DNA from: Styela clava
Lineage: Eukaryota; Chordata; Ascidiacea; Stolidobranchia; Styelidae
Assembly: GCF_964204865.1 (NCBI RefSeq)
Contig: NC_135263.1
Coordinates: 12,817,426 to 12,881,425, forward strand
Length of the DNA: 64,000 nucleotides
Reading direction: 5' to 3'
Numbering within the stretch: the stretch's first letter is position 1; every line of letters starts with the position of its first letter. This document shows, in pieces, positions 1 through 27,034 of the stretch. A program made the position numbers and the translations under genes. The notes beneath the pieces are model-generated. The model was not told where the DNA came from and did no database searches. It saw nothing but the letters and a program-made list of their open reading frames with translations.

Positions 1-125
1 ATCATCCTTGTACAACAACGAGAAGGAACCAGCAAAGTTTTTCGTTTAACTTTTTCTCGCGCATGGCAAATATTCTAAACGGAATTGGATTTAACTACGA
101 AGTAGAGCCAAATGATGATTGTTGA
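1..125 (+). CDS. 3' end of a family A secreted Lys/Pro-rich Cys protein (partial)
   Basis: Only the last 40 codons are inside the window; the frame starts at base 3 and stops with TGA at 123-125. The translation ends in a Lys/Arg/Thr stretch with a Cys (HPCTTTRRN), then FNFFSRMANILNGIGFNYEV and EPNDDC. This matches the C-terminus of the complete gene at 8500-9805 (FFSRL..., RGFGFNSEV, ENDDC), including the penultimate acidic residues and the terminal Cys. It is therefore the final part of exon 3 of another family member, on the same strand, and it shows that the cluster continues to the left. Function is not known; see the complete members. Confidence 0.8.
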   Translation, partial: HPCTTTRRNQQSFSFNFFSRMANILNGIGFNYEVEPNDDC

Positions 126-3100
126 TTGAGCCCAATGAAAAAGTTTTTATATTTAATGTTTTTTTTTCAAGGTGAACTTTTATCTATGCATTTTATGTTT
201 GGATAAATACAATTTTATCTAAAGACAAACCATGTTTTTTTTTTATATACATCATTGATCAGTCAGAAAACAGTTTTGTTCAGAGACAAGTTACGGTCTT
301 TACAGTTAATAGAAAAATGTTTCAGAAGAATTAAAAATCTTTTCTCTGAAGTTGGATTTCAATGATGTCTTAAATTTATCACTATTTAATATTATCCTTG
401 GTCAAAAAATATGCTTGATAATCGTTTCAAAAATCTTGTATAGGTCATAATTACAATTCCTAATTTGAATACAACATTCAACAGAAAACAAAATTCTATA
501 AATTAGACATGGGCTGATAAATATATTAAAAATAGTGTTCAAATTTTATGATTAGAAATTGACGTATTAAAGAATGTATTTCGAAGAAAATAAAAGCTGA
601 AACGTTTCGGTCTTAAGTAGTTTTAACGAAATTCTGCTTTCAAAGGTCAAGGACACTTATCGTAAAAGTCTAGACATTTTTGAGAACATTTATATTAGAA
701 AGATTTTCGTCACGATTGTTGTCTACTTTTAAAACTTCTATTTATTTTATACACATAGGTACAAAGTGTTGTGACGTCATACGTTTGATATTTTTAAAAA
801 CGCCACATGTAATTTATTTATAAAGTGCTGTTTTCTAATTTAAAAACATTATGACGCATTTATGATAAGATTACCACAATTAAGATGAATTCAAGTCGAA
901 GAGCAAAATCTTACATTATTTGTATTTGTTTTACACATTAATAAACGTCACTATGACGTCGTTAAATTGCAATTGAAACAGTGAGATTATTTTTTAGATT
1001 ATTTTTATTATAGAAATAAACTAAATGGTTATATTTCAAATACCCAGCAATGATGAACAGAATAAAAAATAAAATAAAGGGAACATGAAGTGCTCAACTT
1101 AAAAGTATATATATTATGCAATCGTCCATTATATAAATACATTTTTTACTTGTATGTCTTTGGCTAAATAATCTCTGGCACATATATGCAATAATTGCTA
1201 TTGCGAAACCAAAGAGCAATGGTCAAATAATTGGACACGAAGTAACTTACCATACCTAGTCTACAGGCCTTAACTGGTATCGAAAAACTTCCGACTTTCG
1301 TGTATCACGAGTTCACAAAATCAAAATTAAAGATAGCCGTCATACTTGACGGAATAAAAACCGTATTCCCATGTATAAAAATTGAACAGCGAAAATTTTG
1401 GGTAAAATATCAAATGTCATATGATTAATAGAAAAGTTAGGAACAAATAAAAGTAATAGCACAACAATAATATTTAACCACTGAAAATGTCATAGCATCT
1501 GGTCCAGTAGTTATAAAAACAATTTAGAAGCAAAATACTGAAAAGGAAATTAAGATAGGAAAAATAAGCTGATATAAAACTCTTTGCAAGATATTAAATG
1601 AAATTTATAAAGTTAAAACATATATACATATTTATTTATCAATCACCGTATTTTTCTTTGAACATCAAAATAAACGTTTTTTGCACTAACATGAATAGTT
1701 ACAAATGATACATTTTTCAATATCAAATTCAATCAAGAGGCAAAGAATTAAAAATATTCTCGATTTGAGATCATCACATTCATAACTATGATATCACATT
1801 TCTTACAATTAATTTGCGTATGTTTATTGTTTGGAAAAAAAAACTGTGAAATAAGAAATTATGTAATACAATGGTATTCTATTTTCACGTCAAACCTTTT
1901 CCTGTTCTATTTTTAAACGAGATATAACGTACTGCTCTAGGCAGAAAAGACAAACTAGAGCGATCATAGTTTCAAGATTTATTTTAATCGAATAGAATTA
2001 CGTCAGTATGACGTTGTTGAGTGCAATGACGAATTGTCAAAAATAATTTGTAATATTCAAATATAAAATTTGCTTCAAATTCACATGGAAGATGTTAAGC
2101 ATATTTCAATATTGGTTCTTTGTGAAAAGTCGAGACAATGTTAGGTATAAAAACGCCCTAAAACTTATGACAGTTAAAACAAAATTGTAAAAAGAAAGAT
2201 TACCTCCATCGTTGTACTGTTACTTCTTCATCAAAGTGATTACATTTACCTTACACGATATTTTTGAAACCCTTTTTGACAGAAAGTTACAGCAGAACCA
2301 AGCATAAATTGGTGGTATTGGAAGCTAAAAATGACACGTATTTATTCTTATTTTTAGTAATTGCAATGGGAAATCCAAACGGATTGATCATTGCAGAGTA
2401 ACACAAATTACCAAAAATTGTTTCATCAAAAAAGAATTCTTTGATGCAGCTACGGATGCCAGAATATGTACATTGGTCTCATTGTCAAAAGAAGAATTGC
2501 AGGGAAGAAATGAAAACAATAAAGCAACAAGAAATGATTTTATTAAAAAAATAAAAGTAATCGTAATCAAAAAATATTAAAGAAGTCTGTTAAAATATAA
2601 CTTCAAAGAGAAATCAAACAAAAATACTTTGAAGGCTTTTCAACAAATTGTTTATTACCGAATCATCAGTCAAAAAAGATTTTTACAAAATACCTAGCAA
2701 CTCACGAAGCCCAGACATCTCTTTGAAATTTTATTGCCTATTCAAAAGCATAAACGTAGAGATTAATTGTAGTAGTCATTGTAACTGATTTCTACGTTTA
2801 GCACCTTACTCAATACTTTGACGATATTGATAATTGCTGAAAATACCAAGATCAATCAATTAATCTAACATTAATCTATCTCTGAATTTTTCCGTTTACA
2901 AAAATATTTCAACTTCATTTCGAATAATGCTTCAAACTCAAGCTTATGTTTAAAATATCAGTCTCATTTATAAGCTAATATTTTAACCCGGCACCATATC
3001 TATTACAAATAAATCAGTTTTGGACACAAAGTGGAACTATTGATCGTTTCGTTATTTTTATGTTGTTATACTTATAAATCGCGTTTTTCTTTACCAACTG

Positions 3101-3744
3101 GACCAATTGCTTTGAAATTTTCAGTGGTTAAAGATTAAATTTTTGCTAGAAACTATTATTTTTATTTATTTCAAAGATTTCGATGATCTCTGAAATTTGT
3201 TTTTTTTTGTGTGTGATGACGTCACCAAAATTAAAAATTGCGCGTCTTGTGGCGGCTCCGTTTCGCGTAAGTTGATAAATGGCGGCCAGCTGCGGTATGG
3301 TAACGGTAGTCTGCTGTGACAGACATTACATACCAGTACTACTTCGTTTTGGCCATCATGTCCATTTATTTGTACATCGCTCTCTTGTTTAAAGAATAGT
3401 CACAAGCTCTATTCTATATAACCTATAGAGCATGACATGTGTATAATAAGCATTACTGTTTCGCTTGAAATCAATGACGAAAAGAAATACCTGAGGTGAA
3501 TAAAATAACACTGGATACTCTGTATTCATATTTATTATGAAATATAAATTGCTACGAATCAGATCACGTTCTATAATCAGGTATGTTTAACAACAACTTT
3601 GATCAATTCAGAATACAATATCGAAAACATTGAAATAAAATAACAAATAAAAGAAATAGAATAAATAGGAGGAAAAAGACGATGTCTAAATGTAATAATT
3701 CAATATTATTCATTTTTTTTTTCAAAAATTCTGCTGCGTGCTAA
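126..3744. other. AT-rich intergenic stretch
   Basis: I see no coding exon with family support here. The stretch is AT-rich with many homopolymer runs. The only structure I recognise is a dispersed repeat at about 3081-3195, listed separately. Confidence 0.5.
3081..3195 (+). repeat. Dispersed repeat, copy 1 (second copy near 53061)
   Basis: This segment and 53061-53175 share a recognisable run: a GCG-T-rich start, then ACTGG(A/G)CCAATT, (A/G)AAATTTTCA(G/C)TGGTT, then CTAGAA and CTATTATTTT, and a TTTCAAA(G/T)ATTTC block. By eye about three quarters of bases agree. The two copies lie in the same orientation 50 kb apart and neither is coding. The family of mobile element is not recognised. Confidence 0.55.
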
Positions 3745-4030
3745 TCAATTACAAGAATCATTTTTCACAACGTTTGAGTTGAAACCAAATTAATCCATCA
3801 TAAAAGAAAGTCGAGGAAAGAACCCTAAAGAAAATAAAAGTTTTGTTTTTTTCTCAACGCAAGGCTTCTTTCTTGGCTTCATGTGAGAAGTATATGTTTT
3901 TTTATCCGTTAATTTTTCTTTGCTAAGTTGTTTTGAAAATTTATTCTTGGCAGACGACTTTGTTACAGATGGCTTATTACCACTTGGTATTGGCGGTTTT
4001 TGTTTGATTATTTTTTGTTATGTGACCTCT
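3745..4030 (-). pseudogene. Decayed copy of family A exon 3
   Basis: Read on the minus strand, the segment encodes a basic Lys/Pro/Ser stretch (QKPPIPSGNKP ... MKPRKKPC), then FSLGFFPRLSFMMD, an in-frame TAA, then FGFNSNVVKNDSC. This follows the C-terminus of the gene at 8500-9805 almost residue by residue (KKPC, FSLDFFSRLSFMM, FGFNSEV, NDDC). The stop falls where intact copies encode the Arg-Gly before FGF. The natural stop is also disturbed: the Cys codon is followed by AAT-TGA, as if one base of TGT-TAA-TTG had been lost. Upstream, the frame soon hits a stop and the Lys/Pro density is low. No Cys-module exon or signal exon could be found further upstream, so it is called a pseudogene. Confidence 0.75.
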
Positions 4031-7000
4031 TAGCTTTTATTGCCGATTTTCACCTTGGACTACTATTGCCGACAATCCAACGTAAGTTCGCATGTCAATA
4101 TAGGTTTTAGGCACAATTCGTAATTTCATTCACATCATTGGCGTCATAGTGACGTATTTTTCGTAATCCCTAACAAACTATACTCAAAGAAATATCATTA
4201 CTTAATGCTCTCAAAGAATCGACACACTGACCTAATCGCTGTTGCCACGATTAAACGTCATAGCAAGGTAAAAATAGAACTAGATTAGGTCGATAGATTG
4301 AGTTTTTTACGTAATAACTCGTCTACGACAAGGTTTAATTCAATTTTCTTATAAATTAAATATAGAAACATAAAGATCAAATGAGACATAAAATTTTCGA
4401 ATTACATAAACAAGACTTTATTTGTTAGTATTCATCCTCCTTTATTTAATTGTGATTAAAATGATTTTTTACGTTAATGAGTTAATGGCGTTATCAGAAA
4501 TATCTCCATATAAAATATAATTATAATGGTGATTAGGACGGGATAAGATTAAAACCTTAACTCTCATTTAATTAAGCAATATTCTTCTCAGAGCATATTT
4601 TGAAGTTAGATTCCGCTTTCATTGAATTCCACTACATTTTTTTATTTTTTTATTAAAAGTGAAAAGATTGTGAATTTAACATATATTCAATTCAAATACG
4701 TCTGCTTGATATTCTAATTTTTTCCAAATTCACTCACATTTATTATTATTAAAATTATATATGTTGTTCATTTAAAGTGTAAACATATGCATGTTATCAT
4801 TGATTATTTCCTACTTGGTATTCAAAATTTATAATGCAAAAATTGGAAAAAAAATTATAAATGTAATCATTTTTAGTATTATTTCACCAGGCACATATTA
4901 TGGAATGCGACTACTGTACTATGCAACAAAATCATTTTTTACTAAAATCTGAATTATTGCCACGACTAGCCACAAAAAATGGATAACCAGGGTATAAATT
5001 GTAGCTGGCTTTATTGTTCAAATTTTACTTAAAAAAATATTATAACTTAAAATAATGATGCAAACAAATTATGACTTTTAAATGAAAAACGAAGCATTTA
5101 AACATGTTTATATAAATTATATTCTTCTCAGCAAACTATTTACAAAATAATATTTATTTGAACAACTTTTTATTGAATTATTGCTGCACAAAACGGGATT
5201 GAAGTACAATGTGCCTGCAGGAAATTTAGCTAAATTGGTTATCATGTAGCCCCAATATAAAATTGAAATACGTAGAATTCATGAAAACGAAAAATATCGT
5301 ATAAAATTATAAATACACAGAATAAATGATAAATTCATGCTTTATTCAAATGTACAATTTAAACTGTTATAGAATATAGATTACAATTAATATATGAACA
5401 AGTAATGAATAAAAAACATATTTATTCGTATATTCATATTTTTAATATATTTCCCAGGTGTAATTCGGATATCAGATTTTACCAATAGAAGATTGGACAT
5501 GTTCTATGTATGTAGGATTTTGGTCGAGATTATGGGTGCGCAACTATCAGGATGACTAAAAATGTATCGACTATAAAATAGCTAAGAATTGGCTCAGTTG
5601 ACGGGTTATTCGACTACTTAAAATATCGATTTTATATCACATATTTATTTATTCAACATTGCAAAATATTTAATTGATAATATTTTTTCCGTAAATGCTT
5701 GTTCACAATATCAAAAGCATAAAAAATCATATTGCTTTTGTAAAACACTACTTTATGAATTTTATTGGAATATTTTGCGAAGTAAATATGTATATGAAAT
5801 TCATTATCATCATTCATCATCCAAGTCCGCAAGTTAATACGTAAATGGTGAACTTTCTCAAGAATTTTTATTTCCTGTAGGTTTTCGTCCACATATATTG
5901 ACGTAAATGAATCAATCCTCATTGAGCTTGCTTGCAATTAACTACTGCTCTTCTTATACACAACAGTAATTTGGTTATATTTTTAAACTTGTAATGATGT
6001 ATTCACGAAGGATCATTGTGGAGAAACATTGAATCGTATTATAATTTAGTGTAATTTTAATTGCTGTGAACGGATGGAAAATGTCAATATAAACATGTAA
6101 TATCACATTAAATTTGGAATAATGAACAGTGTTTTACTAAAAAGTGAAACATTAAAATAAATTCAAAAATCGAATAGGAACAATTGTACTGAATAGAGAT
6201 GAACTGAAATGCCAATATTAATTTCAATGGCTATATGTGGATACTTTTGTGTACGTTATATTTAAGATATTTTATAGATAGATAAAATAAAATACAGATA
6301 AATAAAATCCATAAGCGTATGTTAATTAAAACCACACCATTTTAATGTACCTTCTTCGTGTTTGTTAAATATATCGACGACAAGTTTTTAATTCGATATA
6401 GCCATCTTTAACTTATCAGTTGTTTTGTGTGATGAAGCACTAGCCTCATTTCAGAATGAATTAATAAACTCTTCAACGGTTATAAAGTTTTAATAATTTT
6501 ATAACTTTGAAATGGTAAATAACAGTAAACTGGGACGTTCAAAGGAATCATTAATATTGCTATGGTAATTTTCTACTGAAAAAGTTTCATAAAAATTTTG
6601 GAGATATTTTTGAAATTCATGAAAGGGTTGATTATAGTCGATAGGATAATAATGACGTAACTTATAGGACGATTTGCAATTGTCGGAAAAAGATAAGAGT
6701 TGATTATTACTGATATTAAATTTGTTTACTCTTAAATATTAGGCCTACGTCATACCCAATAAGCTGTGAACTTTCCTTAGATGACTCTTGTTTTGGACTA
6801 AACTTTTCTTAAAAATGAACAATGCGTTCAACCTACATTTAGATATGTGACAAGTATGATTTACTTTTAATAAAGTTTGAAATTACTCGAACAAGACAAC
6901 TTAACTTAATTATAACATTTTCGGTCAGGATTAGTGAAACGTATTCTGTTTTCAAAGATATGAGTATATTTCCACTTAAACATGAAGTAGTATAATAGTA

Positions 7001-8212
7001 GATGTGAATAAAGCATTGACTTTGACAAAACAATATTAAAGCAAGAAACTAATAAAAATATGCAAAATTAACAACATAGAGAAGTGTGAAGAGAGCAAGT
7101 CATACAGGCTCAAATGATAATTTTTGTCTTTTCGTTGTTCCACTTCTGCAAATTTCATAGTAAACACTACGAAATTATAGTATAAGCATTACTTCTAATA
7201 TTCTTCAACAATTTACAAGTAATATGCAATTTTCTAATGCTAATATTCCAAATTTTATTCAATTAAATACATTTTTGTGATAAAAAGATTTTTAATTTTT
7301 TGGCATAATGTCTAAAAATGTTCAAAAAATATTAAACAATTTTAATTCCACTGAAATCGTTTTTGTCACTTCATTTATGACAAAATAAACAGCTTCTGAT
7401 TCTTCGAAACTGACAATTTTTCTATTATAAATAGATGACATTTGACGAGATTATATTAAATAATCCGTATAAATGTCAAGAAATTTAAAAATCATAAAGT
7501 TACAACTTTTGTTTAAGTAAGGCGTAACTTAATATTATAGATGATTATAACAATGTGAAAGTTTAAAAGTGTATTTACGTAGGTTAAAAGATAACAATTT
7601 TGTTGTAATTGAGATTACAACTTTGTCAAAATAATCTTGTATTTATTTTTTAATCACGAAGCAATGACAATTCCGACGTGAGGGTGCAGTGCATCCGTGA
7701 CTCATGTATATCGTGGAACTTTTAAAGTCGACGTAAAAGTAAACATGTTATAATTGTGAAAATAAGAATATTTGAAATGATTCTATTATCTGTTAAATTT
7801 TAGATTCAAATTTTTTTTTTCTGTTTCATAGTATTGTCTTTGTAGATATTTCTTTATGTAGTTTATTACATTTTTCCCAACTTTTTCGAATTAACATAGC
7901 TGTCACAATCGAGTGCTTCTAGATTAACATCGTGATTTCATTAACATTGTATAGCTAAAATTATGTTCAAACTGACGAAATTGTCAATAAAAGTTTCAAG
8001 ACAAATATTTAACTCGTTAATTTACATTAATAAAAACAAAGTTAATTTCACCTTGTTTTAAAAACCTTGTGGTTAAAAAGACGTCAAAATGACGCACTTA
8101 CACTGTATCAATCGCTAGTCGAAGAGGCTCTGCATTCAAATTTTGCAAAAAAAAATCGCATATAAATTTGCCTACGGGCAGGTGGACAAATGTCAAATAA
8201 TGGTATTGTTTC
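4031..8212. other. AT-rich intergenic stretch
   Basis: No exon, RNA gene or repeat that I can support. Short open frames here (for example 5653-5937 minus) have no recognisable motif and no splice context. Confidence 0.45.
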
Positions 8213-8220
8213 TATAAAAG
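8213..8220 (+). promoter_or_regulatory. TATA-like box for the gene at 8500
   Basis: TATAAAAG lies 287 bases before the ATG at 8500. A 5' UTR intron could link it to the gene: a possible donor lies at 8292-8293 (ATCT|GTAAAA) and a pyrimidine-preceded acceptor AG at 8476-8477, leaving 22 bases of leader before the ATG. No transcript evidence is available, so this is a candidate. Confidence 0.4.
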
Positions 8221-8499
8221 GCACTACTGTTGGACCTTCAGCAACAGTTTTGTGAGGGTCTTGATCCTCACAATAGAGGTTTTGCAGATCTGTAAAAAAG
8301 TTTATACCTAAATTTTTGGTATACTGAGAAAAACGCAACAGAGAAAAAAACCTGATTTTATTTCCGATTCAATACTGAAATTAATGTAACGTTTTTGTTA
8401 AATAAAACTTTTTTCAATGTACTTCCTATTTTCTAATATTTTGGTATATATTTCTATAATATTTTATTTCATTTTAGTACATTAAATTCTGAAAATAGC

Positions 8500-9805
8500 A
8501 TGAAAGGGCTTCTATTTTTTGCTATTACTTGTGTATTAGCTGATGTGTCAGTTAGTTTGACTCCGTTTCAACTGCGATACAAGATCAGTAAAACACAATG
8601 TGCTCCAGGTATGTTTTTGTTTTTGAATCGGCACATTTCTCAAACTTTGAATACCCAATCTAGATAATATTTTGATGTGAACTGTATAGAATTTGCGTAC
8701 CCTATTTAATTTGGTAATGTGGTAAAGTGTGTTGAAAGTTTGTTCTCTCATTTATCAAACATTCATTTGTTTTTATTTTCAGTGAGTGGATATGAAGACA
8801 AAGTTATTCCATGTTACGATTTCAGAAGAATGAAAATAGTTGACCCTACGAAATGTGGACACAAAGCATATTCACACTGCTGTGTATACAATTGCACTTG
8901 TATTATGAAAGGAGGTGGGCATCGTTTGTAATTTCATTTTTCTGATTTTTTTTCTCAATAATTACTATGCTGATATTAAAATTGCCAATATCACAAATAT
9001 CACGGCTTTAAGAGCATCTGACGCAGTATTCTCGATGGCCAAGTTGCTTTTGTATTGATTTGGTAGTCCAATCGACTTATTCAAACATTTATTTTCAGCG
9101 GGAACATCAGCTGGCATTATTCCAGAAAATTTCAAATTGAAGATTGCTTCTCCAATAAAGAAAAAGCACATACCACCACGTTTACTAGAAGGTTGTGTAC
9201 CGGACCCACCGGTTGACGATTCTACAACAGTAAAACCACCAGTAAAGCCATCAGAAAGACCAGTTATTGTCAAACCAAAACCAAGTGTACGAAGGCCAAT
9301 TGTGCCAACGAAGAAACCAATTCCAAGAAAGCCCGTTCCAAAACCAAAGAAGCCCGTGTCAAAGAAGCCGGCCAGAAAACCAACAATCAAAAAACCTGTC
9401 TCGAGAAGACCAGCAATAAGAAAACCCACAATAAAAAAACCGACTGCAAAAAGACCGGCAACAAAGAAGCCATGGACCAAAAAACCTACATCTAGAAAAC
9501 CAGTTGTGAAGAAGCCCATGGCAATAAGACCGACACCAAAAAAGACAGTCAAAAAGCCTGTCCGAAGAAAACCTTTAAATACCAAAAAACCGATTGCAAG
9601 AAAACCAACACAAAGAAAACCATTAAAACGGAAACCCCCAGTAAAGAAACCAACACCCTCTCCAAAAACAACAAAGAAACCGTGTGCCAAATCAACCAAA
9701 GCAACCAAAAAGCCTGCATTTTCACTTGATTTTTTCTCCCGACTTTCCTTTATGATGCGCGGTTTTGGATTCAACTCAGAAGTAGTTGAAAATGATGATT
9801 GTTAA
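8500..9805 (+). CDS. Secreted Cys-module / Lys-Pro repeat protein (family A, complete)
   Basis: Three exons, 8500-8608, 8783-8914 and 9099-9805, all joined in phase 1, give 315 aa. Exon 1 encodes a signal peptide (MKGLLFFAITCVLADVSVS) and a short mature N-terminus ending in Cys34. Exon 2 is a Cys module with spacing C-x12-C-x13-C-x7-CC-x3-C-x-C, containing IPCYD, HCCVYNCTC and IMKG. Exon 3 starts AGTSAGIIPE, has a Cys in LLEGC, then about 150 residues rich in KKP, RKP and KPT units, and ends KKPC..., FFSRLSFMMRGFGFNSEV, NDDC. A polyadenylation signal follows at 9857. No domain family is recognised. The architecture fits a secreted, disulfide-linked, strongly basic structural or adhesive protein, by inference only. 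The exon structure is shared with the genes at 13761, 19091 and 25113. The G/F-rich frame on the opposite strand is a mirror of AAA/CCA codons. Confidence 0.88.
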
Positions 9806-9856
9806 TTGCAAGTATACATAAAACAGTGTTTTAACTAGTACTGCATCAACATTCTG

Positions 9857-9862
9857 AATAAA
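9857..9862 (+). terminator. Polyadenylation signal AATAAA
   Basis: AATAAA lies 52 bases after the stop codon of the gene ending at 9805, a normal position for 3' end formation. Confidence 0.6.
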
Positions 9863-11796: not shown

Positions 11797-11804
11797 ATCT
11801 ACGG

Positions 11805-12814
11805 CGGGGGTGGTCAACACGTCGATCGCACGTCTCGAGTAGTCGATCGCCACGTCTCGAGTTTCGAACCAGTTTCATGCAGCGCCTGTTGTGTGTTTAA
11901 AACAGGATGAATGCTGTACTGTACATACGCAAACTATAATGTATCCATACAGTTTTCGAGTCGGGGCAAACCCGATAGAGCATATTAATACGTAACAAAT
12001 GGAATATTCGCCGCTGCCAAGATTTAGAAATGAACGTACCGATTATCTCGCGTTTTGACCGACAAACGATCCTACAATAACTTCTGCAGTATGCGGTAGT
12101 TATTGTCTCACTTCAATTTTTTCTAATTTTAAGCGAGCGAAAAATCGGATTTGGAGGAAATTGTAAATTAGATACCGAAATTTGAGCAGTAGTGTAACAT
12201 TTATTGTTTGTGAATATTTATTGTTCGCTGTTTAGATAATATGAATGAGGTTTTTTGAGGAACTTTCAACGCTTACGACTAAAAATTGGGAAGGCGTTAG
12301 ATCTGAATTATATGGTTCAAATAAATGATAAAATTCACTCTGAGTACAATCACATTATCAAATTAATAAAATGAAATGGAACATAAAAAAGGGCGTACTC
12401 AAGGGCGTGGTTTTTCGGGTCGAACCCATTCCTCTTTTGCCTTTTGAAATATAAGAAAATAAAAGCATTTTCTGTATCAAACATAGCAATATTCGTAGTT
12501 CAAAACGCTTTTGATCAAAACGCCCTCAATACTCTGAAAACCCTCTTTTCCCGTCCTTCCACCGGACCCGCTAGTGGTTACGGTCTAACTCGGCAATTAG
12601 AAAATTCAGACCCCTTCCCCCCCTCTACGCTGCCGATATAGAATACAAATTTTTGCGCCACCGAGCCGAACTTGGCAGCGGTGGATTTTTTGTTTGCGTG
12701 TGCTGCATATTCAGTATTCATTCGTTATTGTGTATGACTTATTATCGATCATTCGATCGCAAACTATTTGGATGATTTTAGTCGATCGCGTCGAAAGCAG
12801 GTTGGCCACCCCTG
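11805..12814. mobile_element. hAT-like DNA transposon, 1010 bp, non-autonomous
   Basis: The left end reads CGGGGGTGGTCAAC, and the right end read inward is CAGGGGTGGCCAAC, forming terminal inverted repeats. The flanks ATCTACGG (11797-11804) and ATCTACGA (12815-12822) form an 8-bp target-site duplication with one mismatch, typical of the hAT superfamily. GTCGATCGC motifs occur near both ends. Two short open frames lie inside or across the right end, but I recognise no transposase motif in them. The element is visibly more GC-rich than its surroundings. Confidence 0.75.
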
Positions 12815-12822
12815 ATCTACGA

Positions 12823-13427: not shown

Positions 13428-13435
13428 TATAAAAT
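13428..13435 (+). promoter_or_regulatory. TATA-like box for the gene at 13761
   Basis: TATAAAAT sits in a short palindrome (GACTAT-AAA-ATAGTC), 333 bases before the ATG at 13761. The distance implies a long leader or a 5' UTR intron. A possible acceptor AG is at 13679-13680. Candidate only. Confidence 0.35.
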
Positions 13436-13760
13436 AGTCAGCCGAAGCCACAAAATGCATTCAATATTTTGTGCCTGTAGCCGTTCACTTGTTGAAGAAA
13501 AAAATTGTTGATAAGCTGAACTAGAAAACATAGGTATTTAGACAAGTTCGAGAGCCAAAGTAAAATTTTGCTACATAGTTCGAATTGCATTTTTACCTTA
13601 CGGTTGCACGCTTGCATGTAAGAGAAATCAGTTTATTTGATTTACTACAATTCCAATAACCGTTTATTTATACCAACTAGTTTTCTCTATATACTGCTAT
13701 TACGCCAAAATGCAATAAACAGAAATGTATTTTTATTTTGAAAGATTGATAAACGCCAAA

Positions 13761-15584
13761 ATGAGGACATTACTAATAGCCATAGGACTATTTGTCTTTG
13801 TCGATGCTTCCCTTGATCCAACTTTAACAATATTTCAACAAAGATACAAATTAAGCACAGGAGTTTGCGAACCAGGTAAATAAAGTTTTAATGAATTTTT
13901 ATGGTTTTGTACAAGTTAAAATTTTTAAATCTTAACGAGGGTGAAAATAACGCAATATCCATGTACAAATTTGAATCCTTTAAATTTTTTCTATATGTTA
14001 GAATCTAAATAAACTGAAAAGTGTTTATTCGAACCAAAAAAATAATAGGATAAATACATCCTGGTCACTATTTATGAAATACTGTTAACGATTTAAATTT
14101 GTGATCTATACGTATCTGAAAATTTATATAACATGGAACTAAGATCCATCACGGTATTCTTAAATATGATATTCGAGTGTTTCAGTTTCATCACGTGACA
14201 ACGAAAAAATTTGCAAAATTTGCATTCAATACTATTTTTCAATTTGTCTTTAGATGCCAAAAAACGTAGGCATTAATCGTTTCAATATATTAACTCCGAT
14301 TTTAATATATATATATACCATTGTATTACTGCAGCGTCCAAAATTTCTAGTAGAAGTAATTATTAAATCGTGTAATTGTACGTTTGTGCAATCAAAACGG
14401 TCGAGAACAGGACTGATAAGTCAGAGATCAACGTGTACACTGTTCAGTTTCTTTAATATTCATTTTTTCTTTATATAAAGCGAAAGGATTTGAAAATAAA
14501 GTGACGCCGTGCTATGACTTAAAATCCAAGAAATTGGTCAAGCCAGAAGATTGTTTACACAAACGAAATTCGCATTGCTGTATATACAACTGTACATGTA
14601 TCGTGAAAGGAGGTAAGATATTACTTTATTTATTTATACCATTTGGACCAATTTCACGATCACAACACTAAGTCAAAATGTTTATGCATAGGCGAGCAAT
14701 TTTGTTTGAGACCTTTGTGGACAATGTCACTTTTTAAAAATTAGATGAATATTACTGCAGCATTACATTTTTGGTAAAATTCAGTTTATTCCGTAATTTG
14801 AATGAAATTCAACTATCTGTTTTTATATCTCAAATATTTTTTTTTAGCTGGAACTGATCAAGGAGAAATTCTAAAGAAGTATCAACTTCCAGAGCCAAAA
14901 TTGCCTGCAAAAAAGAAAGCTTTGCCCAAAACTACATTGGAAGGATGCATCCCAATTCCTCCACCTGCATCCGAACAACCAAAAAATACACCCAAGCCTA
15001 TGAAACCAACTCCTAAAAAACCAGCGGGACCAACTCCAAAAAAGCCAGTGAGACCAACCCCTAAAAAACCAATGAGGCCAACTCCTAAAAAGCCAGTGAG
15101 ACCAACTCCCAAAAAACCAATGAAGCCAACTCCTAAAAAACCAATGAAGCCAACTCCTAAAAAGCCAATGAAACCAACACCTAAGAAGCCTACAAAACCA
15201 AAGCCAAAGAAACCCATGAAGCCGACGCCTAAAAAGCCAGTAAAACCAACTCCTAAAAAGCCAGCAAAGCCAATCGGTAAAAAACCGGCGAAACCAACCC
15301 CAAAGAAACCAGCTCCTAAAAAACCGATGAAACCAACTCCTAAAAAGCCGATTTCAAAAAAACCCGGAAACAAAAAACCAAAGAGACCAACACCAAAACC
15401 AAGAAAGCCTACGCCAAAACCAAAAAAGCCCACGCGACCAACTAAAACGCCAGCACGTACCACTAAGAAAATGTGCACCACAACAAAGGGATCACGGTCA
15501 GCGTTCCAAGCAAGTTTTTTCGAGCGTCTTTTGATGTTGACTCGGGGCTTTGGTTTCGAGGGTGAGGTAGTCAAGGAATGCTAA
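13761..15584 (+). CDS. Secreted Cys-module / PTPKKP octapeptide-repeat protein (family A, complete)
   Basis: Exons 13761-13875, 14481-14612 and 14848-15584 join in phase 1 and give 327 aa. Exon 1 encodes the signal peptide (MRTLLIAIGLFVFVDAS) and ends in VCEP. Exon 2 is the Cys module, with exactly the spacing of the gene at 8500 (C-x12-C-x13-C-x7-CC-x3-C-x-C; TPCYD, HCCIYNCTC, IVKG). Exon 3 opens AGTDQGEILKKY and has a Cys in LEGC. It then runs through a regular octapeptide of the form KPTPKKPx (x mostly Met, Val, Ala) with Lys/Arg exchange, many copies in register, and closes with KKMC, FFERLLMLTRGFGFEGEV and KEC. Lys and Pro dominate the mature chain. This is the most regular repeat of the family. 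An adhesive, matrix or binding role for a polycationic chain is inference. A polyadenylation signal lies at 15735. Confidence 0.9.
14988..15370 (+). repeat. 24-bp coding tandem repeat (KPTPKKPx octapeptide)
   Basis: Within exon 3 of the gene at 13761, units of the type CCAACTCCTAAAAAGCCA plus a variable codon and AAG/AGG recur every 24 bases. Synonymous variants (AAA/AAG, CCT/CCA/CCC) show that the copies are diverging while the peptide is kept. Irregular units appear towards the 3' end. Confidence 0.85.
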
Positions 15585-15734
15585 ATGCATGTGATGTCAT
15601 ACACCAGCTCATTTACTTGTTCAAATGATTCTGAAATATAATATTGGTCAGTTTACTTGACTTCGTTATTCCTACACTTACAGCGAATACTCTATATACG
15701 CGTGGTGCTGGTTACCTGAATTGTTATTTTTTGA

Positions 15735-15740
15735 AATAAA
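15735..15740 (+). terminator. Polyadenylation signal AATAAA
   Basis: GAAATAAAATAAA overlaps two possible signals about 150 bases after the stop codon of the gene ending at 15584. Confidence 0.5.
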
Positions 15741-16583: not shown

Positions 16584-16591
16584 GTGCAGAG

Positions 16592-17448
16592 CAGGGGTCG
16601 GCAACCTTGTTCCACCCGCGGGCCAAAATTAAAGATTTGAAATTAAAGTATTGGCGGGCCGCACATGTTTTTATAAAGGTAAAAGCGAACAGATGGCCGA
16701 TGAATCGCTATTTTTTCACACGGATCAGAAGTTGTCATTTTAGATTTTAAACAGCGCACGAGGACTGCGACAATTCGTGAACTCAACTCAGTCGTCTTAC
16801 CAAAAGAAAAAGATATTACAAATGACATTAATGTCACACTTGTTGTTGCATCACGCTTGATAGCATTTCGAAATTAGGCGTCACACTGGATGAAGACAAG
16901 ATTAATACATTTTTCAAATGGCCATCACTAATCCGAGTTCTCAGATTGTTCTTTGTGATGTTCGAAAATAATTGTTTACACGCATATGTACTTCCACACA
17001 TCGATGTGAATTTTCTCGCATGATGGGATGTCAAATTTGGATAGAGATTTTCTTCAAGAAGATACTTTTTATGAAAACCAAGTAGTGATAAATCTCTCGA
17101 ATAGAATATGGATTTTATTTCCTCATTGCATTGCATGTCAAGAAGCTCTATTCAAATATTTTCTGCGCCATGGAACTCTCTGCACTCAGCACCAACTTTT
17201 CTGCGTGTTGCCATTTGTCTAATTATAATTAAATTGTAGGCTCGTTAAACGAGTAGATTTCCACTGAATTGCTCGATTATGATAAAATTTAATCTACAAA
17301 TGTCTTACAATAAATTCTGTTACGTACAGAATATAATCAATTCCTCGAGCGTAGAATATAAAATTAATTCATCGTCAAAATCGGCGTTTTTCGCCATAAT
17401 TTGTCGCGGGCCGGATCTGGCCCTTGGGCCATAGGCTGCCGACCCCTG
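16592..17448. mobile_element. hAT transposon, internally deleted, 857 bp
   Basis: The left end CAGGGGTCGGCAACCT and the right end read inward, CAGGGGTCGGCAGCCT, form terminal inverted repeats. The flanks GTGCAGAG (16584-16591) and GTGTAGAG (17449-17456) are an 8-bp target-site duplication with one mismatch. Subterminal GCGGGCC motifs at both ends are typical of hAT elements. A remnant of the transposase C-terminus lies inside on the minus strand, so this is a deletion derivative of an autonomous element. Confidence 0.85.
16834..17136 (-). pseudogene. hAT transposase C-terminal (dimerisation) remnant
   Basis: The minus-strand frame carries the signature of the hAT C-terminal dimerisation region, as in Charlie-type transposases and the domesticated GTF2IRD2/ZBED-like proteins. 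In order these are MQCNEEIKSIF, YPNLTSHHARKF, GSTYACKQLFS, RTRISDGHLKNVL and TPNFEML. The codons before the Met (IELLD) also fit the family but are preceded by a stop. The N-terminal zinc finger and most of the RNase H-like catalytic core are absent. It is contained entirely within the 857-bp element and cannot be an active transposase. Confidence 0.75.
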
Positions 17449-17456
17449 GTGTAGAG

Positions 17457-19090
17457 GGACTGAAACCTATGGGCAGGGGAATATTCTCTTGGCTAACACA
17501 GACAGTCCCCAAACTTATAATTTAACTAAAATAAGAAAAATCAGAATAAAATTATGGCCTAACCCTAACTTGGTACACATACTTCGGGAGTACGGAAAAA
17601 TCTTCAGCTAATCATTTTGCTTTCATAAAAAGACAAATGCTTTGTAGATCTGTAGTGTAACACAGAAGTTCTGCATATTTAACTTCGGCCACGTTTCCTG
17701 CAATTGATTAGACTTTGGGTATTTGGCGAATAATATCACGCTAACAACGTCAGTTTTACAGACTAGTACGAATAAAAATGGGAATAACAGAAAATAGGAA
17801 AAAATTAGGTTTGATCAACCTTCTGAAACCTCAATGTCGATTTCATAAATTCCTAAAATTATCGACAAGAAAGACGCCTAATTAGCAAAGTTTTTTACTT
17901 GAATGAAACAAACATTTAGACTTAGACTAAATATTTACAATTAAAATAAATTTTAAATAAACTTGTGTAATATAAACTAATATATAGACTAATATAAACT
18001 TGTGGGTGGAAGAATAATACGAATTTTATATTTTCGACCAATAATTAAACATTTGAAGTCGACTCCAATTTTTTAAACATCGGTCAAATTGTAAAGGCGG
18101 AGCTATGGCGTAGATGACGTATGCAGTGAGGAAATACAAAACATACTCTGCACTTAGAACTTAGTTTGATTATTTCGAGTCAAATTTGCTAAAAAAACAA
18201 ACGAATGCTACTCAACTCGCTTCAAAAATGACGAATATAAATTTACGCATAGGATGTAGCCTTGACTTACCTAATGAATACTTAAACAAGCTAGTTCTGT
18301 AACAAGATTGTTATATTCGATTATATTTTCAAAACATTACTGTCAATTGTAGTTTAAAATTCTTTCAATTAATAAATTTTTTTTATGTATATACATTTAT
18401 CGACGAAAAAATCAAAATTATGTTTTGCGGTGACTTCGATTTCTATGATAAATAAATCAGTATTCCGTGGAATGCTTTATTAAATAATATATGTGTGATA
18501 CAATACTTATCGAAACGTATCCCTGCGAGGGTTGGGAATTTTAGACTACCGGATAAATTCAGAATTGAATCGAATATTTTTTTCTAATCAAATCGATTCT
18601 GGAATACTTAGAAGATTGATAAATGTATGTGACTTTTTATGATAATGAGTAATGTAAACTCATAAATTACTGAAAACATAGAATCCTCAGACAGTTCGAT
18701 AAGCGTTCACACACAATAAGAAACATATTTCATTATCAAATAACTAGGAAGAAAAGAGTCACATTTCAGTTTGCATTTAGAAATATTGCTTCAACAAAAA
18801 AAAATTTCGTATTCACCTTAACTTTTGGTGAAGCAAAAAAACAAGATGGCGGTGATTTGAAATTTTTGCCTGAACCGATTCGAATAAATTACTCATACTC
18901 ATTCACTTTCAAAAATATGTACAACCATTTCAGCAAGAAACAATAGAGAGAATAAGAATTAAATTAAAAGTTGTTTGCGACCTACATGCAGGCCGTCGTA
19001 TTACAAAATATGATCCACATATATATATTTCAAATACAGCTTGGATCAGCGTGAAGTTGACGCATGATATAAAGCACGTGTTTGTTAAAA
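17457..19090. other. Intergenic stretch, no gene seen
   Basis: AT-rich; no exon or RNA gene supported. This is the 3' flank of the minus-strand gene at 19091-20401. No clear polyadenylation signal lies close to its stop. Confidence 0.4.
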
Positions 19091-20401
19091 TTAACATGGT
19101 ACTAAGTCTGCTTCAAAACCGATTTGGCCTAAAAAGAAACTAAATCTATCTGCAAACAAAGATGCAAAAGGATTTTTTGGCTTCTTTGTGGCACATGGCT
19201 TTGTTGTTGGTTTTCTGGATGTGGTCGTTGGCCTAGTGGGTCTTGGTTTACGCTTTGGTTTTGTTGGTGAAGGTTTCTTGGGTCCAGGTTTCCTTTTTAT
19301 TGGCTTTACTGGTATTCGTTTGGGTTTTTTAGTTTTCATTGGCTTCGGTTTTTTGTTTTTTATTGGCTTCGGTTTTGCAGATGCTTTTGGTCTTCTTGGA
19401 GGGATTGCAGTTGTTTTCCTAGTCGATACAGATTTGGGTGTTGGTGCCTTTGATGCCAGTTCGGGCTTTGCTGGTGTTGCCGATGGTTTTGATCGTTTGC
19501 ATCCTTTTATTCTTGGTATTTTGCTTCTACCCAACGATGCAGATTTCAATATTGCGTCTGGCATTCTGAGTTGATCTGGTATTTTGACGAATCCAGCTAA
19601 ATATAAAATGTAAACTGTATGCTCATTACCGCGAATTAACTTCAATTGCACCAAACTTTCATGCCTACAAATCATTGCTTTATTCGCATGTATATCTTCT
19701 TTCTCAATTATACTTCGATGGATATGTTGTTTAAAATATGAAAGGTGCCATAACATACCTAATGAACTGATTGGATAATTGTTGCTAACGTTAGTTTGCT
19801 TCCATTTTATTGAAACAAAATTCATATAAAAATACCTGACTAAACAGAGTAGAGTATTTTCAATTTATTTTATGTAATCAACTAACCTCCTTTCATCACG
19901 CATTTGCAATTATAAATGCAACATTGTGGATAATCTGTGCAATTCTTTGGATCAATCAGAGTCTTTTCACATGGATCGTAACATGCCTGTAATTCTTTTA
20001 TTGATCCAGGTTCTAAATGAACAAAGATTAATGTTTCAATTCAACAAAAAATATTAACATCTTGTGCTGTAACGATATATATATGCATATAAAAAATTAT
20101 ACGTTAGAAAGTAGGAGTAATTTCAGATAATGAATTTTGGCCCACCTTGGATTCGAAGCTTCGGTTTTGATAATTATGTAGGAAGCTAATTTTATTTCGG
20201 AAAACTAATTTTGACCTACTTCTGCACACACTATCATAAGTAAAACACATAGTTTGTTAAATTTTTGTGAAAATACTTACTTGGTTCACAGGTTTTTAAA
20301 TTCCCAATTTTGTAACGCAAAGCTCCACATTTTATTTCGGCAACAGCAGCTGAATTTGTCAAAAATGTAGCAATAACTATCAACGGTATTGCTTTCAGCA
20401 T
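19091..20401 (-). CDS. Secreted Cys-module / Lys-Pro repeat protein (family A, complete, two extra Cys)
   Basis: Minus-strand exons 20401-20281, 20012-19887 and 19596-19091 join in phase 1 and give 250 aa, the shortest complete member. Exon 1 is a signal peptide (MLKAIPLIVIATFLTNSAA) followed by EIKCGALRYKIG and TCEP. Exon 2 encodes ACYDPCEK, QCCIYNCKC and VMKG. Exon 3 opens AGFVKIPDQLRMPD, has a Cys in IKGC, a Lys/Pro/Thr/Arg repeat region (KKPKPMK, KRKPRPTRP), then KPCATKKP, DRFSFFLGQIGFEADL and VPC. Relative to the other members it has two additional Cys, one before the module (KCG) and one inside it (DPCEK), and C-x5-CC instead of C-x7-CC. The upstream CAG six bases before the ATG could be a leader acceptor. 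This is the only complete member on the minus strand. Function unknown. Confidence 0.87.
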
Positions 20402-23400
20402 CGTTATCTGAATTAACAATTTTCATTCATTTTTTTATTACAAATTTTGAATTAAATGATCGACTAAAAATTTCTCAGAGTATTCATAAAAATGTTAAGA
20501 ACAAAGTCACGAGTTTGTACTTTACTGTGTATTCACTGTGTAAAATTAATTTGGGATAAATTTTCAAAAAATAATTTGTAGTATATTTGGAATAATGCAG
20601 TCAATTCAATATGTATACTAAACAAGCTTGGAGCGTTCAAGCGCGATATCCAATATTTATGTATAAAGGTTTATATGCAACATTTAAAGACAAATTTAAA
20701 CGTATATTACGCTATTTTAAGATATGTTATACTTTTTTCTATCATATTTCAGGTATCCAACAAATATCCTTTCTATTATAAGAATAAAAAAGACACCTTT
20801 CGCATACTAACTTTTAATGATTTTTTCAATCCACTTCTAGTTGTCAGTCGGCCAGTTCAGCCAGGTACTCTTAAACAACACGCGGAATTTAAATGTGTAC
20901 TTGATTATTCTTACTCTTTTATAGAAACGTGTGAGATTATTATTAGAATATTCCCAAAATGAGCCGTGAGGCAAGACAAAGGTTTAGAGCTTTTTTCATA
21001 TAGAACTCGTAATATCACATTATTCTGATTGTTATCTAAGAGCTTTAATGCTATTCGTTTAAAGAATTGTAACAAAGTTGGTCAATTCACTAAATTCTCA
21101 CATGCAGTCAATTATGTTGATTACGATAAACTTGTAAATGTAAAGTCGCAATTCTCGACGGCTTTATAATCAAGTTCGGGATGGTATCGGATACCACAGT
21201 GATATCAAGAGTTTGGTCAAATTTACAGTTAGCAACAGGAAAATGTTCCAGTGAAATACTGTTTTTTTTTAATCCTCAAACCCACACTCACAACAACTTC
21301 ATTGCGTGATCTAGTGAACCGTTGGATATACCCGAGGCACCAAACAAACAAATGCTGACAAAAACGAAGGAAGAATAAATTATTATGAAAATGTGACGTG
21401 TCATTCTGATAATATTCTAATTTATATCAGATTACCCATCTGAGTCATTGCTTTGTCGACTTTATTTAGAAGATTTAACGGCCACGAACTATACGTACGG
21501 ATCGTTTCAGTATATTGTTGTTTCTTTGTTTCCAATTTCTAGTACTTGAAAAATATTGAAACCACTAGAGGGCTATTACTTTTAATTTTTTTTAAACTTT
21601 TTTTGACTTCAATAGGGCTCAAATTTAACCCTAAATCTACTTACTATATGTCTGAGAATATTGCACCGCCAGGTGGCGTTACGTTAGACCAGTCCAAAAT
21701 CACTGCTCAGCTGTGGTCTTAGCGGTGCATATTATTACCGTTTTGAGTCCTGTAAGGCCAGACTGAAATTATTTAGGTATGCTTGTTTGTATTAGGTTTG
21801 AAACATTACGTTTATAACCCCAACTTTCAACAATGAACTTCTCAGGAGAACTAGCAACAGATTAAAATAGAAGGCCATGATCGCCGATGTCTGCAACAAA
21901 TTTAGTACACGAAGAAGAAGATATAACCACAGCATATGCTGCAGTTGAGTGGAAATATAAAAATTCCTCATGTAAAATTAAACTTCGATTGCATGTGAAT
22001 ACTATTTTATGTGTAAAGAGACAGAGAAACATTTCACAACAAAGCGTACTGGACTTGTCATGTGGACTCGTGATGTAACTATCAAGGGATATATTACAGC
22101 CATCTATGACAGCGTGGTCCCGCCACCTAGCGGACAAGTTGATATTGATTTGTGCACACGATTTTATCTGATTTTGCTGCAAAATCTGTTTCGTCGCAAA
22201 GTGTGTAAATTTACTTACACCTTGTTAAATCTATTAATTTTATTTCCGCTACCAGTACAAGCAGTCCGGCAATTTTTGTAAATAATTGAGAAATACAATG
22301 GGGGCATGTTTGTCAATTCATAAAAGATATATAGATATGTATATTATGAAAAAAAAACATTCACTCTCTCAGAAATCCACTTACAACTCAATGAGCGCAC
22401 ATATCGTATAAGAAATAGCATAAGACTCAATACTCAATTTGCTAGGTTGTGATTGATGGCGATAAATATACCTGGATATACTCGATGCAAGTTGTTTTAC
22501 CGTGGTCGAATTGCAATTACAATTGTTTTTGGGAGAGAGCATTAGAATGGTTTTATGAATTTCAGGACTATTTGTCATTGTCGAGTGGTCATCACTTCTC
22601 AGATACACTGTGTTTTTTATGAACCACTCTCATACATCATCTTGTAATATTGAGCCCTTGTAACCTTCTGCCCTATATTATACTTAACCTGAGGTAACCG
22701 GACAAACAATCGTGGTTATGCAAACAAAGAAGGAGTTTTAAATGTTTTAAAAAACGAAGAATGTGTCATTTCATTTGCCTGAAACAGAAAAAAAATCGCA
22801 ATTGCCGTAATATTGGATTATCGCTTTTTGGGACATATATTTTGTACTTTTAGATTGTTGTAAGCTGCAGTGATAAGGTATTTCGCCATTGGACACGAAT
22901 GGTCATTTATATCATATCTCAGGCAAAGAAACATGTCATAAAATTACACTACTTTTACAATCGGAAACAAAATAAATCAGCTTATCTACAAAATGATGTC
23001 GTTTAAATATTTTAACATGAAACTGTTAAAATTTGGCGTTTTTTCAGATAGATATATTAGTTGAATTTCATTACAATTTTGTACATTCTAAAACATTGAT
23101 AATATTGGGAAAACGACCAGAATGCATATGTTTCTTTCTTGGTTGTTGATATTTAAGAATACTAGCTCTATACATCTTAACATTTGGTTTTGGTGACACA
23201 CTCCGTACAAGTTCATTTTTTTTGCATTTAATTTGAACGCTGCAAGTTTCATTTGATTTGAATGCTAACCATCCAATGAGTTCAAAAATTAGTGTATATA
23301 TGTATATATCTTACATAAATATTTCCTGATCCAACTATTTTTAAAATTGACATTCAATTATGACATTCAAGCAACATAAATTAGTAAATATCATAATTTC

Positions 23401-25069
23401 ACAATTCGGTTTTTATACCTTGTTCACACAAACAATTTCAAGAAATAGTTACAAAAATAAACACTTGCTGCATATTAGTGGCGGAGATGATTCAGTTCAA
23501 CTTCATTTAATGAATATGGTGAAATTTGTTGTATGCTGTGGACAGGCTTCTTGGAACTGTGCTTTTGAGAAGTACATGAAAAAATGATATATACCGCTAA
23601 AAATAACATTTTCATGACTCACGGATAAGGTTATAATGACTTCCAATTACATTATTTCGTTAGGTCAAATGCATCATAGTTTTGTTTGGGAAACTATAAA
23701 CATGAAGCGAGAAGCTATTTTTAGATACACTATGACGTGCGAAAACAGCGATTAACAGTAGCGGGCTGCACTGCTACGTTCAATCACACGACAATGTTAT
23801 AACTTGAAGTGTCCCTTAATTGTTTATTTGAAATTATATTGATTTTGACGTCATGATTAGGCTGATTTTTCGACTAATTTGGGCAATGAGATACGTTCGA
23901 CATGTTTTGGGTATCAACTTCAAATTACAAAAACGATCTAAAGAATATGAAATTTTAAAGAATTTTTTAATACCGGTGTATTCTCTGCACGCTCTATATA
24001 AATGGGTCAAGCAATCTCTCTATCATGTAGACTCGAAAGGTAAGTTGACTTCAACTAAAGTCGATGCTATTGGAGCGCAAAGTACGGTAGAGGCTTCATC
24101 GCCTGAATTAATATTTATTTTCAGAAACGGTGACAGTAATGTGTCGTTCTTGTATGAATTGGTACTTGGTATTCATATAAACAGCAATTACGCGTTTTCA
24201 AAGTGTTAATATCATATTGAACAATTCATTCAATGATAACAAGTTGGTAATTAGTCAGCATGAGCTATAGTTAAATAATTTAAAAACTGTCCAGATTTGA
24301 AAAAACTCTGACCCGATTACCAGAACAATAAAGTGGCACGGATACAGTGGGATTTTCAACGATATATATATATATCGAACGTATATCTTCCAACATTTCA
24401 TAAAGCTTTAAGTGAAATGCCTAATAAAATTCGCCCTACTTCATGTGCCCAGAAATAATTGATTTACATATGTTGTACCTGTATCTAGCTATATACTCAT
24501 ATTATTCATTAAAAATTGAATATTAAACACTCCATTTTGTTTCAGTAGTCAGAACAAGGTGAGGTCATTTGGCATAAAACTAAAAAAAATATTCGCGCTT
24601 TCCAAATGCCGCCATTTTTTTTTGTTTAACAAAATTAAGTTTAAGCAACATGCGCACGACATTTGATTTTTTCTATTGAAGTAATATATCAGCTAATCAA
24701 ATTTTTGTTGTATTTTCATCTGACAGAGCTTATATTTTCGAGTAGAATTTAAAATAGAAATCGTATTTATGAGTTACCTGAACTAGCAATTCAACAAATA
24801 CCGTGGACAAAAATAAGAAGTTGTTTCATATAGTCTTATTTTTTTATTTGGCACACAGAAATTTCTGTGGAAATTCCAATATTTTCTATACAGATAGAGA
24901 ACAAAAATTGATAAATTTTATTAAAGTACTGAGTATTAGTTTACCACCCCAATAAGTATTGAATGGAACATGCTGCTTTGAAACCTAAAAAAGGCTTAGA
25001 GTAAATCTAGCAAGTTTGGACTTATATGATTGAAGTTATTGTAATCCTATTTCACTTTATTCCATTTCT
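20402..25069. other. Long divergent intergenic region, no gene seen
   Basis: This lies between the divergently oriented family A genes at 19091-20401 (-) and 25113-27034 (+). Open frames such as 23853-24209 (+) have no recognisable motif, no signal peptide and no paralogue in the window. A self-complementary AT stretch at about 24361-24378 is the only local structure. Confidence 0.4.
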
Positions 25070-25112
25070 AGACATACGTTTTGTTATAATCTTCACAATC
25101 ATAAGCTCAGAT

Positions 25113-27034
25113 ATGGACATGAAATTCATATTATTTGTCGTTGTAGCAGTCGGAATGCTGGATATTGCAACTTGTTTAACTCCGTTCCAACTCAGATTTA
25201 GGATCAGCAAAGCCCTGTGTGCACCAGGTATGTGATTGACCTTAGGTACAATATAAATATATTAATTTCTTGTATGATCCTGCATATCACGGCTGTTAAC
25301 AGAGTAGCCGCGAAATAATTCAAGCGACTCCTGATAGAACTTCTTATGGATCGAATGTTATAAATGACATGCAGGCTACAAAATGAGAAACAAAATGGCC
25401 GCATTGTCTAAAATTCCACTAGCCATTTTTTGTCTGTAAGTTTCCATTTCCTTTTAGTAGGTTTCTGCTACTTTTCTTTGGGTGGTATATTAATGAAAAT
25501 TACATATATTTAACATTAAAAAATTAGTTTCAGGACACGAAAAAGATATCGTTCCATGTTATCAGTTTCATACCAACAAAACAGTTCAAGCAAAAGATTG
25601 TGGAAAAAAACCGAATACCCATTGCTGTATGTACAATTGTACTTGCATCATGAAAGGAGGTTCGTTAACACTATCTTTAAATAATTGAAAAATTAATTAA
25701 TTAGTCAGATTATCTCAATAAATTTGTTGGTTTAAGTTGAAGTAATGTTAGTGTAAGTGCAAATTACTAAACTAGTTTCAGTGTGAATAGAATTTGACAA
25801 TTTCAAGATCACAGGTATCAGATTGTTATTTAAAAATATACAAAGTACAATGAGAAAATAAGCAGAGCGCACTATGGCAAGCAGCAGATTTTTCCACTAT
25901 ATTTCAAGTCAGGCATTTTGTTTTCATCAGACATTTAATTTATTGTTTTAATCAAATTATGGTACTAGTAATTATGTCTGGTTAACTAAATCAGTTGAGA
26001 CAAAATTTCGAATCGCCGCCATTTTTTTTTCGTTTGCCAAAGATCTAAGTAAATCCGTCAATTAATCTTCAATTATTCGAATAATCTGAAATAATCAGGT
26101 ATTTGAAAATGCCCAGCCTTACTAGCAATAAGTTAAGCAGAGAATGATATAAATATAATTCACAAAATTGATGTTTCTAATTCTCACGCATAACTCAACA
26201 ATAAACTTTTGTACTGTTTGTGCATTTTATTCCCGAAAGTGTATAAATATAAACATATACATTTCTCAAGATAATACCGAAAATCTTTTCTATATATATT
26301 CAACTTTTATCTAATATTTTTTAGCTGGCACAAAGCGCGGTATTATCCCGAATGAATACAAGTTGCCGCCATCTTTGCTCAAATTCAACAGCAGTGGAAA
26401 CTTCACCAATCGCTTAACGAATTGTGTACCTGAGTTGACTACAAACACAACTTCTCAGCCAAAACCAACTGTGGGCATCCAGAATCTTCCGAATTCAAAA
26501 CCAGGTTTGACTAAAACAAAACCACAAGCAGTTACTCAAAAGCCAGTGAAGACGACGCGACCAAAACGGATTTCGGTAAAACCAACTCGATCCAAGGCAC
26601 CAACTAATAAGCCGTGGAGTGCTGAAAAAAGACCTGTGACTAAAAAAACAGGACTAAAAAATCGCATACCAGCTCCCAGAACACCGATCAACAAAAGAAC
26701 AAAAACCAAAGGGCCACGAACCAAACGAATTCAAAAATCTACTCCAAAACCTACTGGAAGAACAACAACCAAAGGGTCACGAACCAACCGAATTCAAATA
26801 TCCACTCGAAAATCTACTGCAAGAACAACAACCAAAGAGCCACGAACCAAACGAATTCAAAAATCCACTCGAAAACCTACTCCAAGAAAAACTACAACCA
26901 AAAAAACTCCACCAACCAAAAAGCCTTGCCGACCATCCTCGCAGTCAGGTGGATTCAGCATATTGTCGCGACTATCCTTTCTCGTACAAGGATTTGGTTT
27001 CAACTCCAATGTTGAGGCTAAAAATTGTCGTTAA
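25113..27034 (+). CDS. Secreted Cys-module / Lys-Thr-Pro repeat protein (family A, complete)
   Basis: Exons 25113-25227, 25534-25659 and 26325-27034 join in phase 1 and give 316 aa. A second in-frame ATG at 25119 is also a possible start. Exon 1 encodes a signal peptide (MDMKFILFVVVAVGMLDIA), then TPFQLRFRISK, nearly the same as TPFQLRYKISK in the gene at 8500, ending LCAP. Exon 2 is the Cys module (VPCYQ, THCCMYNCTC, IMKG). Exon 3 opens AGTKRGIIPNEYKLPPS and has a Cys in LTNCVPE. Its repeat differs from its siblings: less PKKP, more Thr/Arg, with a 21-residue unit repeated three times. It ends KKPCRPS, LSRLSFLVQGFGFNSNV, KNCR. A pyrimidine-rich acceptor at 25070-25071, 41 bases before the ATG, suggests a spliced leader or 5' UTR intron. 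Secretion is predicted; the function is unknown. Confidence 0.88.
26705..26893 (+). repeat. 63-bp coding tandem repeat, three copies
   Basis: Units begin ACCAAAG at 26705, 26768 and 26831, exactly 63 bases apart. They encode a 21-residue unit of the form TK-x-x-RT-x-RIQ-x-ST-x-K-x-T-x-R-x-T-T. The copies are nearly identical, so the duplication is recent compared with the 24-bp repeat in the paralogue at 13761. Confidence 0.85.

Follow-up and report, generated by a model that had tools for sequence, protein, structure and literature searches.

In the Styela clava stretch analyzed here (the window: 64,000 nucleotides, C18:12817426-12881425 on scaffold C18 of a 376.6-Mb assembly in 379 contigs), four genes, A to D, encode putatively secreted proteins with cysteine-rich ends and a long basic middle. 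The family to which they belong is, as far as sequence can tell, defined by a pair of cysteine caps and not by the linker between them.

Conserved cysteine caps and a variable linker

In this family, exon 1 encodes a hydrophobic leader and the first core cysteine, exon 2 a six-cysteine module, and exon 3 the eighth core cysteine, the linker and then a C-terminal segment (the C cap) bearing the last two core cysteines. Leaders were classed as signal peptides by eye. Our member table holds 21 of the 22 intact copies found in the genome; the 22nd (L020) was added separately. All ten core cysteines are kept in 21 of 21 tabulated members, in the pattern C.P...CY...C...CC...C.C followed by three exon 3 cysteines, which agrees with the ten shared positions beyond the signal peptide reported in the preliminary description of this DNA. 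The C-terminal segments of these members share a Gly and the last cysteine. Two additional cysteines, one before the first core cysteine and one after the CY, are both present in seven members and both absent in 14; gene C carries them together with the ten shared cysteines beyond its leader. Such joint presence and absence would be the pattern expected of a disulfide pair.

Among the tabulated members, the linker, which joins core cysteines eight and nine, is 39 to 198 residues long, with a net charge of −1 to +62. A polycationic Lys/Pro repeat had been taken as the family hallmark, but with this range, near neutral on scaffold C14, the hallmark does not hold, and the caps are what is shared instead. 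The linker of gene B consists of 36% Lys and Arg and 35% Pro, and acidic residues are few in the window genes (A, 4 of 162; B, 1 of 175; C, 1 of 101; D, 3 of 167). Tyr is absent from the linkers of A-D and occurs zero to two times in those of the 21 members. The internal repeat units differ between A, B, and D, and therefore the composition of the linker, not its sequence, seems to matter.

The N-terminal module (N module) is under purifying selection, its ratio of nonsynonymous to synonymous substitution rates (dN/dS) being 0.10-0.39 in nine close pairs. The linker ratio lies above that of the N module in eight of the nine pairs; its values span 0.21 to about 2, and the highest of them depends on a single synonymous change. 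These pairs share members, and the counts are raw, without a significance test. Five more distant pairs are mostly saturated at synonymous sites, and the synonymous divergence (dS) of the N module is 2.5 for A versus B and 1.3 for A versus D.

Gene models and further copies in the window

Judged from their sequences, genes A-D are real. Each model has three coding exons with GT-AG introns at the same two positions and a symmetrical, phase 1-1 exon 2 of 126-132 bases; the predicted products are 250-327 residues long, with isoelectric points of 10.3-11.3 when computed without the first 19 residues. Together with the conservation across copies, these models bear out the four intact three-exon genes described before. 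The stop-to-stop frames around exon 3 (239-260 residues) are longer than the longest frame among 200 first-order Markov sequences of 27 kb (191 residues). Frame length is weak evidence alone because low-complexity coding opens other frames: the antisense of gene A exon 3 is likewise open, over 278 residues. Conservation between copies is therefore the stronger evidence.

Gene A lies on the + strand at 8500-9805. Its modeled exon 1 (8500-8608) holds the leader and first core cysteine, exon 2 (8783-8914, also found by tblastn) the cysteine module with PCY..HCCVYNCTC, and exon 3 (9099-9805) the C cap and a 162-residue linker which, like the other linkers, is taken from the member table (net +54). 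Gene B (+, 13761-15584) has exons at 13761-13875, 14481-14612 (cysteine module), and 14848-15584, the last encoding a 175-residue linker (net +62) with 24-bp repeats and the C cap. On the − strand, gene C (20401-19091) carries one cysteine of the covarying pair in exon 1 (20281-20401) and the other in exon 2 (19887-20012) with the cysteine module; its exon 3 (19091-19596) encodes a 101-residue linker (net +36) and the C cap. Gene D (+, 25113-27034) comprises exon 1 (25113-25227), exon 2 with the cysteine module (25534-25659), and exon 3 (26325-27034), in which a 167-residue linker (net +46) with 63-bp repeats precedes the C cap.

Two further copies had been described as partial and decayed. 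The first is cut by the window edge only: positions 1-125 (+), which overlap genome locus L005, form the 3' terminus of another intact gene, the fifth, which starts left of the window, and upstream sequence completes it to 346 residues with all ten core cysteines. The decayed copy stands. It is a relic of the C-terminal part, matched by tblastn (E 2.5e-11) to a C-terminal segment with an in-frame stop at 3891-3751 on the − strand; by eye, its basic remnant appears to reach about 4030, and no adjoining exon 2 is among the tblastn matches listed.

Upstream of the family genes, roughly 10 of 12 sequences have an AG acceptor (assigned by eye) just ahead of the start codon, and a TATAAA-type box occurs farther upstream in seven of the 12. 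This arrangement suggests a non-coding first exon or a trans-splice site. The element TATAAAAG is found at −287 in gene A and at −215 to −230 in all 14 copies of the array described below.

Distribution across the genome

Exon 2 of gene B as a genome query gave 28 matches, of which 27 are credible. The cluster in the window is real, as first described, but the family is not confined to it: these 27 copies lie on three scaffolds. Scaffold C14 has seven and C19 one; the rest are on C18, where five belong to the window cluster and 14 form an array at C18:14.350-14.408 Mb. A second query with a C14-type exon 2 recovered the same 27 copies and one extra weak C14 match with two stops (E 0.07), which may be a relic. 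All copy counts are lower bounds. Matches on C5 (E 0.6) and C3 (E 0.6) and a pattern match on C6 were taken as chance, and tblastn of the C5 and C6 stretches found nothing.

Intact three-exon readings were obtained for 22 of the 27 copies, in both orientations. The five non-intact copies are L006 (stop), L016 and L017 (truncated), L024 (C cap in a different frame), and L028 (one module cysteine replaced, exon 3 not found). In the array, 11 of 14 copies are open over three exons, with L006, L016, and L017 broken. The repeating unit of the array (L032-L035) measures about 9.15 kb and holds two family genes in opposite orientations; every unit fetched also contains an extra exon 2-like fragment. 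One pair of neighboring units is 99.3% identical over 9.1 kb, and units compared with the far end of the array are about 92-95% identical. The array is a recent tandem expansion and would make a good case for studying gene conversion.

Searches for relatives

The preliminary description recognized no domain family, and our searches agree. Pfam scans of 10 of the 22 intact members gave only sub-threshold matches, each in a single member: Nha1_C (B, E 0.27), DUF1823 (L023, E 0.11), and DUF7772 (L021, E 0.038). The DUF7772 (PF24977) match was judged to be chance, since L021 reached 14.8 bits against a curated cut-off of 25 and the other nine scanned members had no match; a genome search with this domain found nothing, and control genomes were equally silent. 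Sequence searches of the PDB with gene B, a four-gene profile, and L025 returned nothing below E 0.9. No relatives were found in bacterial and archaeal genomes or viral contigs, which says little as these collections are not animal.

Cysteine spacing recalls secreted phospholipase A2, insulin-like, and cystine-knot proteins, none of which had a Pfam match in the scanned members. The active-site motif of secreted phospholipase A2 is CCxxHDxC. The family reads CCxHDC or CCxY[NK]C instead, and this candidate was rejected.

Topic, species, and peptide-string searches of the open-access literature found no description of the family. The family is thus apparently undescribed as far as Pfam, PDB sequences, and this literature go; tunicate protein collections may already hold relatives.

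Possible functions

We tentatively favor, at somewhat less than an even chance, a secreted protein of matrix or mucus with ends that present an adjustable chain, which in the window genes is a polycation that would bind acidic polymers of the tunic or mucus. Folding would be limited to the N module and the C-terminal segment, possibly joined in one unit from which the linker emerges as a giant loop; the linker itself would be unstructured, with each paralogue having its own charge setting. With its few acidic residues, the Lys/Pro chain of the window cluster could bind acidic or sulfated polymers of the tunic or mucus; alternatively, its lysines could be offered to quinone cross-linking. Either way, the protein might cross-link or coat the extracellular matrix.

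This matrix or mucus role is favored because the host has the machinery for tunic cellulose, because tunicate matrices hold many proteins without known domains (such as oikosins, according to the available part of PMC3390340), and because a Lys/Pro chain of such length is well suited to binding polyanions. On scaffold C9 we found a GH6 domain (E 1.5e-6; the exon alone, E 9.9e-11) and, about 2 kb from it, a cellulose-synthase frame (PF03552, E 8.8e-7; PF13632, E 2.6e-16; the query frame bore ten extra prefix residues). A cellulose synthase-GH6 gene marks tunicates, and the host was taken as one accordingly; a search for COX1 as a taxon marker gave no match. According to PMC3390340, tunicates are the sole animal exception in making cellulose. 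Ascidian phenol oxidases have been suggested to act in tunic sclerotization via quinones (PMC9395347, available in part), and therefore lysine cross-linking may be a reasonable sub-hypothesis. A bolder version, which we regard as quite doubtful, is that a tunicate-specific disulfide fold, split by the linker into N and C parts, frames a polymer loop that can be retuned freely (39-198 residues; net charge −1 to +62) and gives matrix components of graded charge; the Lys/Pro branch would then supply lysines in the tunic, either for tanning by quinones or for binding polyanions.

Several observations weigh against these proposals. The five intact C14 copies have near-neutral linkers (−1 to +3), and therefore no function of the entire family can rest on polycation binding; this neutral branch argues against every reading that puts a polycation at the core of what the family as a whole does. 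Structure prediction of the exon 2 module, proposed earlier, was run on the module alone (AlphaFold2, four sequences), but at a predicted local distance difference test score (pLDDT) of 50.9 the model is not informative and the fold was not predicted. The AlphaFold2 model of the C cap has a helix at residues 16-29 (block pLDDT 64-75) and was used for this helix only, its mean pLDDT being 60.6; in just three of eight stretches is the helix more amphipathic than 95% of shuffled sequences. The cysteine covariation may reflect only one or two events, and in the tree behind it four of 14 inner branches have good support. Nor does the C cap stand out clearly from the linker in constraint, its dN/dS being the lower of the two in just five of the nine close pairs. 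Finally, recent tandem expansion fits immune effectors too.

The main rival, to which we give a modest chance, is that the proteins are cationic antimicrobial or immune effectors in the style of penaeidins, in which a cysteine-rich head and a basic Pro-rich chain attack or agglutinate bacteria. The combination of such a chain with a cysteine-rich module, the recent amplification seen in the 99.3% identical neighboring units, and the occurrence of 22 intact and five broken copies side by side all suit this explanation. However, the intact C14 linkers are near neutral, the chain is held between two conserved caps instead of being free at one end, and the scanned members have no significant Pfam or PDB sequence match.

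An underwater adhesive of the larva or adult, secreted by papilla, stolon, or ampulla, is unlikely. Most tunicates are sessile as adults, and the tunicate host and the repetitive, lysine-rich chains would suit such a role. Yet the linkers of A-D lack the Tyr needed for 3,4-dihydroxyphenylalanine (DOPA) chemistry of the mussel kind, and the neutral C14 branch would go unexplained. The words 'lysine' and 'proline' are absent from the available text of an ascidian adhesion review (PMC4275875). Reproductive or egg-coat proteins with rapid turnover are less probable still: fast linker change and paralogue arrays point that way, whereas the purifying selection on the N module does not. It is very improbable that misassembly created the array copies or that most of them are decaying repeats, given that 11 of the 14 are open, that other compared units differ by about 5-8%, and that N-module dS of 2.5 and 1.3 makes the family independent of the array, even with one unit pair 99.3% identical and three of 14 copies broken.

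On the preferred matrix or mucus reading, fixed ends with a neutral-to-cationic middle would offer a natural series in which to study the control that chain charge exerts on how a cellulose-based matrix or mucus assembles. If the proteins are antimicrobial instead, comparison along this series would probe the part that charge plays in killing.

Other features of the window

By eye, a hAT-like non-autonomous element lies at 11804-12813, with ends GGGGTGGTCAAC/GTTGGCCACCCC and an exact 8-bp target duplication GATCTACG. A second hAT-like element at 16592-17448, also read by eye, has ends CAGGGGTCGGCAACC and GCTGCCGACCCCTG and imperfect 8-bp flanks GTGCAGAG/GTGTAGAG. A short interspersed nuclear element resembling transfer RNA (tRNA), with a B-box-like GGTTCAAATCCC, was placed by eye at about 29430-29760; ARAGORN called no tRNA genes in the window. 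A cluster of CAP-superfamily exons occupies 38522-59074 on the − strand, with PF00188 over the cut-off in four of ten scanned frames and just under it in one more. These exons resemble several genes that we take to be GAPR-1/GLIPR2-like. A U6 spliceosomal RNA gene lies at 63620-63724 on the − strand (61.3 bits).

Comparison with known systems

In penaeidins, a Pro-rich chain comes first and a six-cysteine domain follows. The present family likewise joins a basic Pro-rich chain to a compact cysteine-rich module, but in the reverse order, the module preceding the chain in all 21 tabulated members. It also differs in its ten core cysteines, its second conserved cap at the C end, and the absence of a significant Pfam or PDB match among the members searched. 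Mussel foot proteins have Tyr-rich repeats and DOPA chemistry; they resemble the family in being repetitive secreted chains and differ in cysteine spacing and in the Tyr that the A-D linkers lack. Cnidarian minicollagens, with cysteine-rich ends around a Pro-rich middle, share that layout, whereas the family here has no collagen repeat and a different cysteine spacing.

Much of what tunicates secrete is unlike the proteins of other animals. About half of the oikosins, the house proteins of Oikopleura, have no known domains, and almost a third come from gene duplication, as stated in the available part of PMC3390340. Oikosins are secreted matrix proteins; for the family here, a place in a matrix is a proposal. 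The likeness is a broad one of description and does not define a sequence family: the present proteins, too, come from a duplicated tunicate family without recognized domains and are secreted, judging from a leader assigned by eye. The family belongs with the lineage-specific secreted proteins of tunicates, and its design is unusual.

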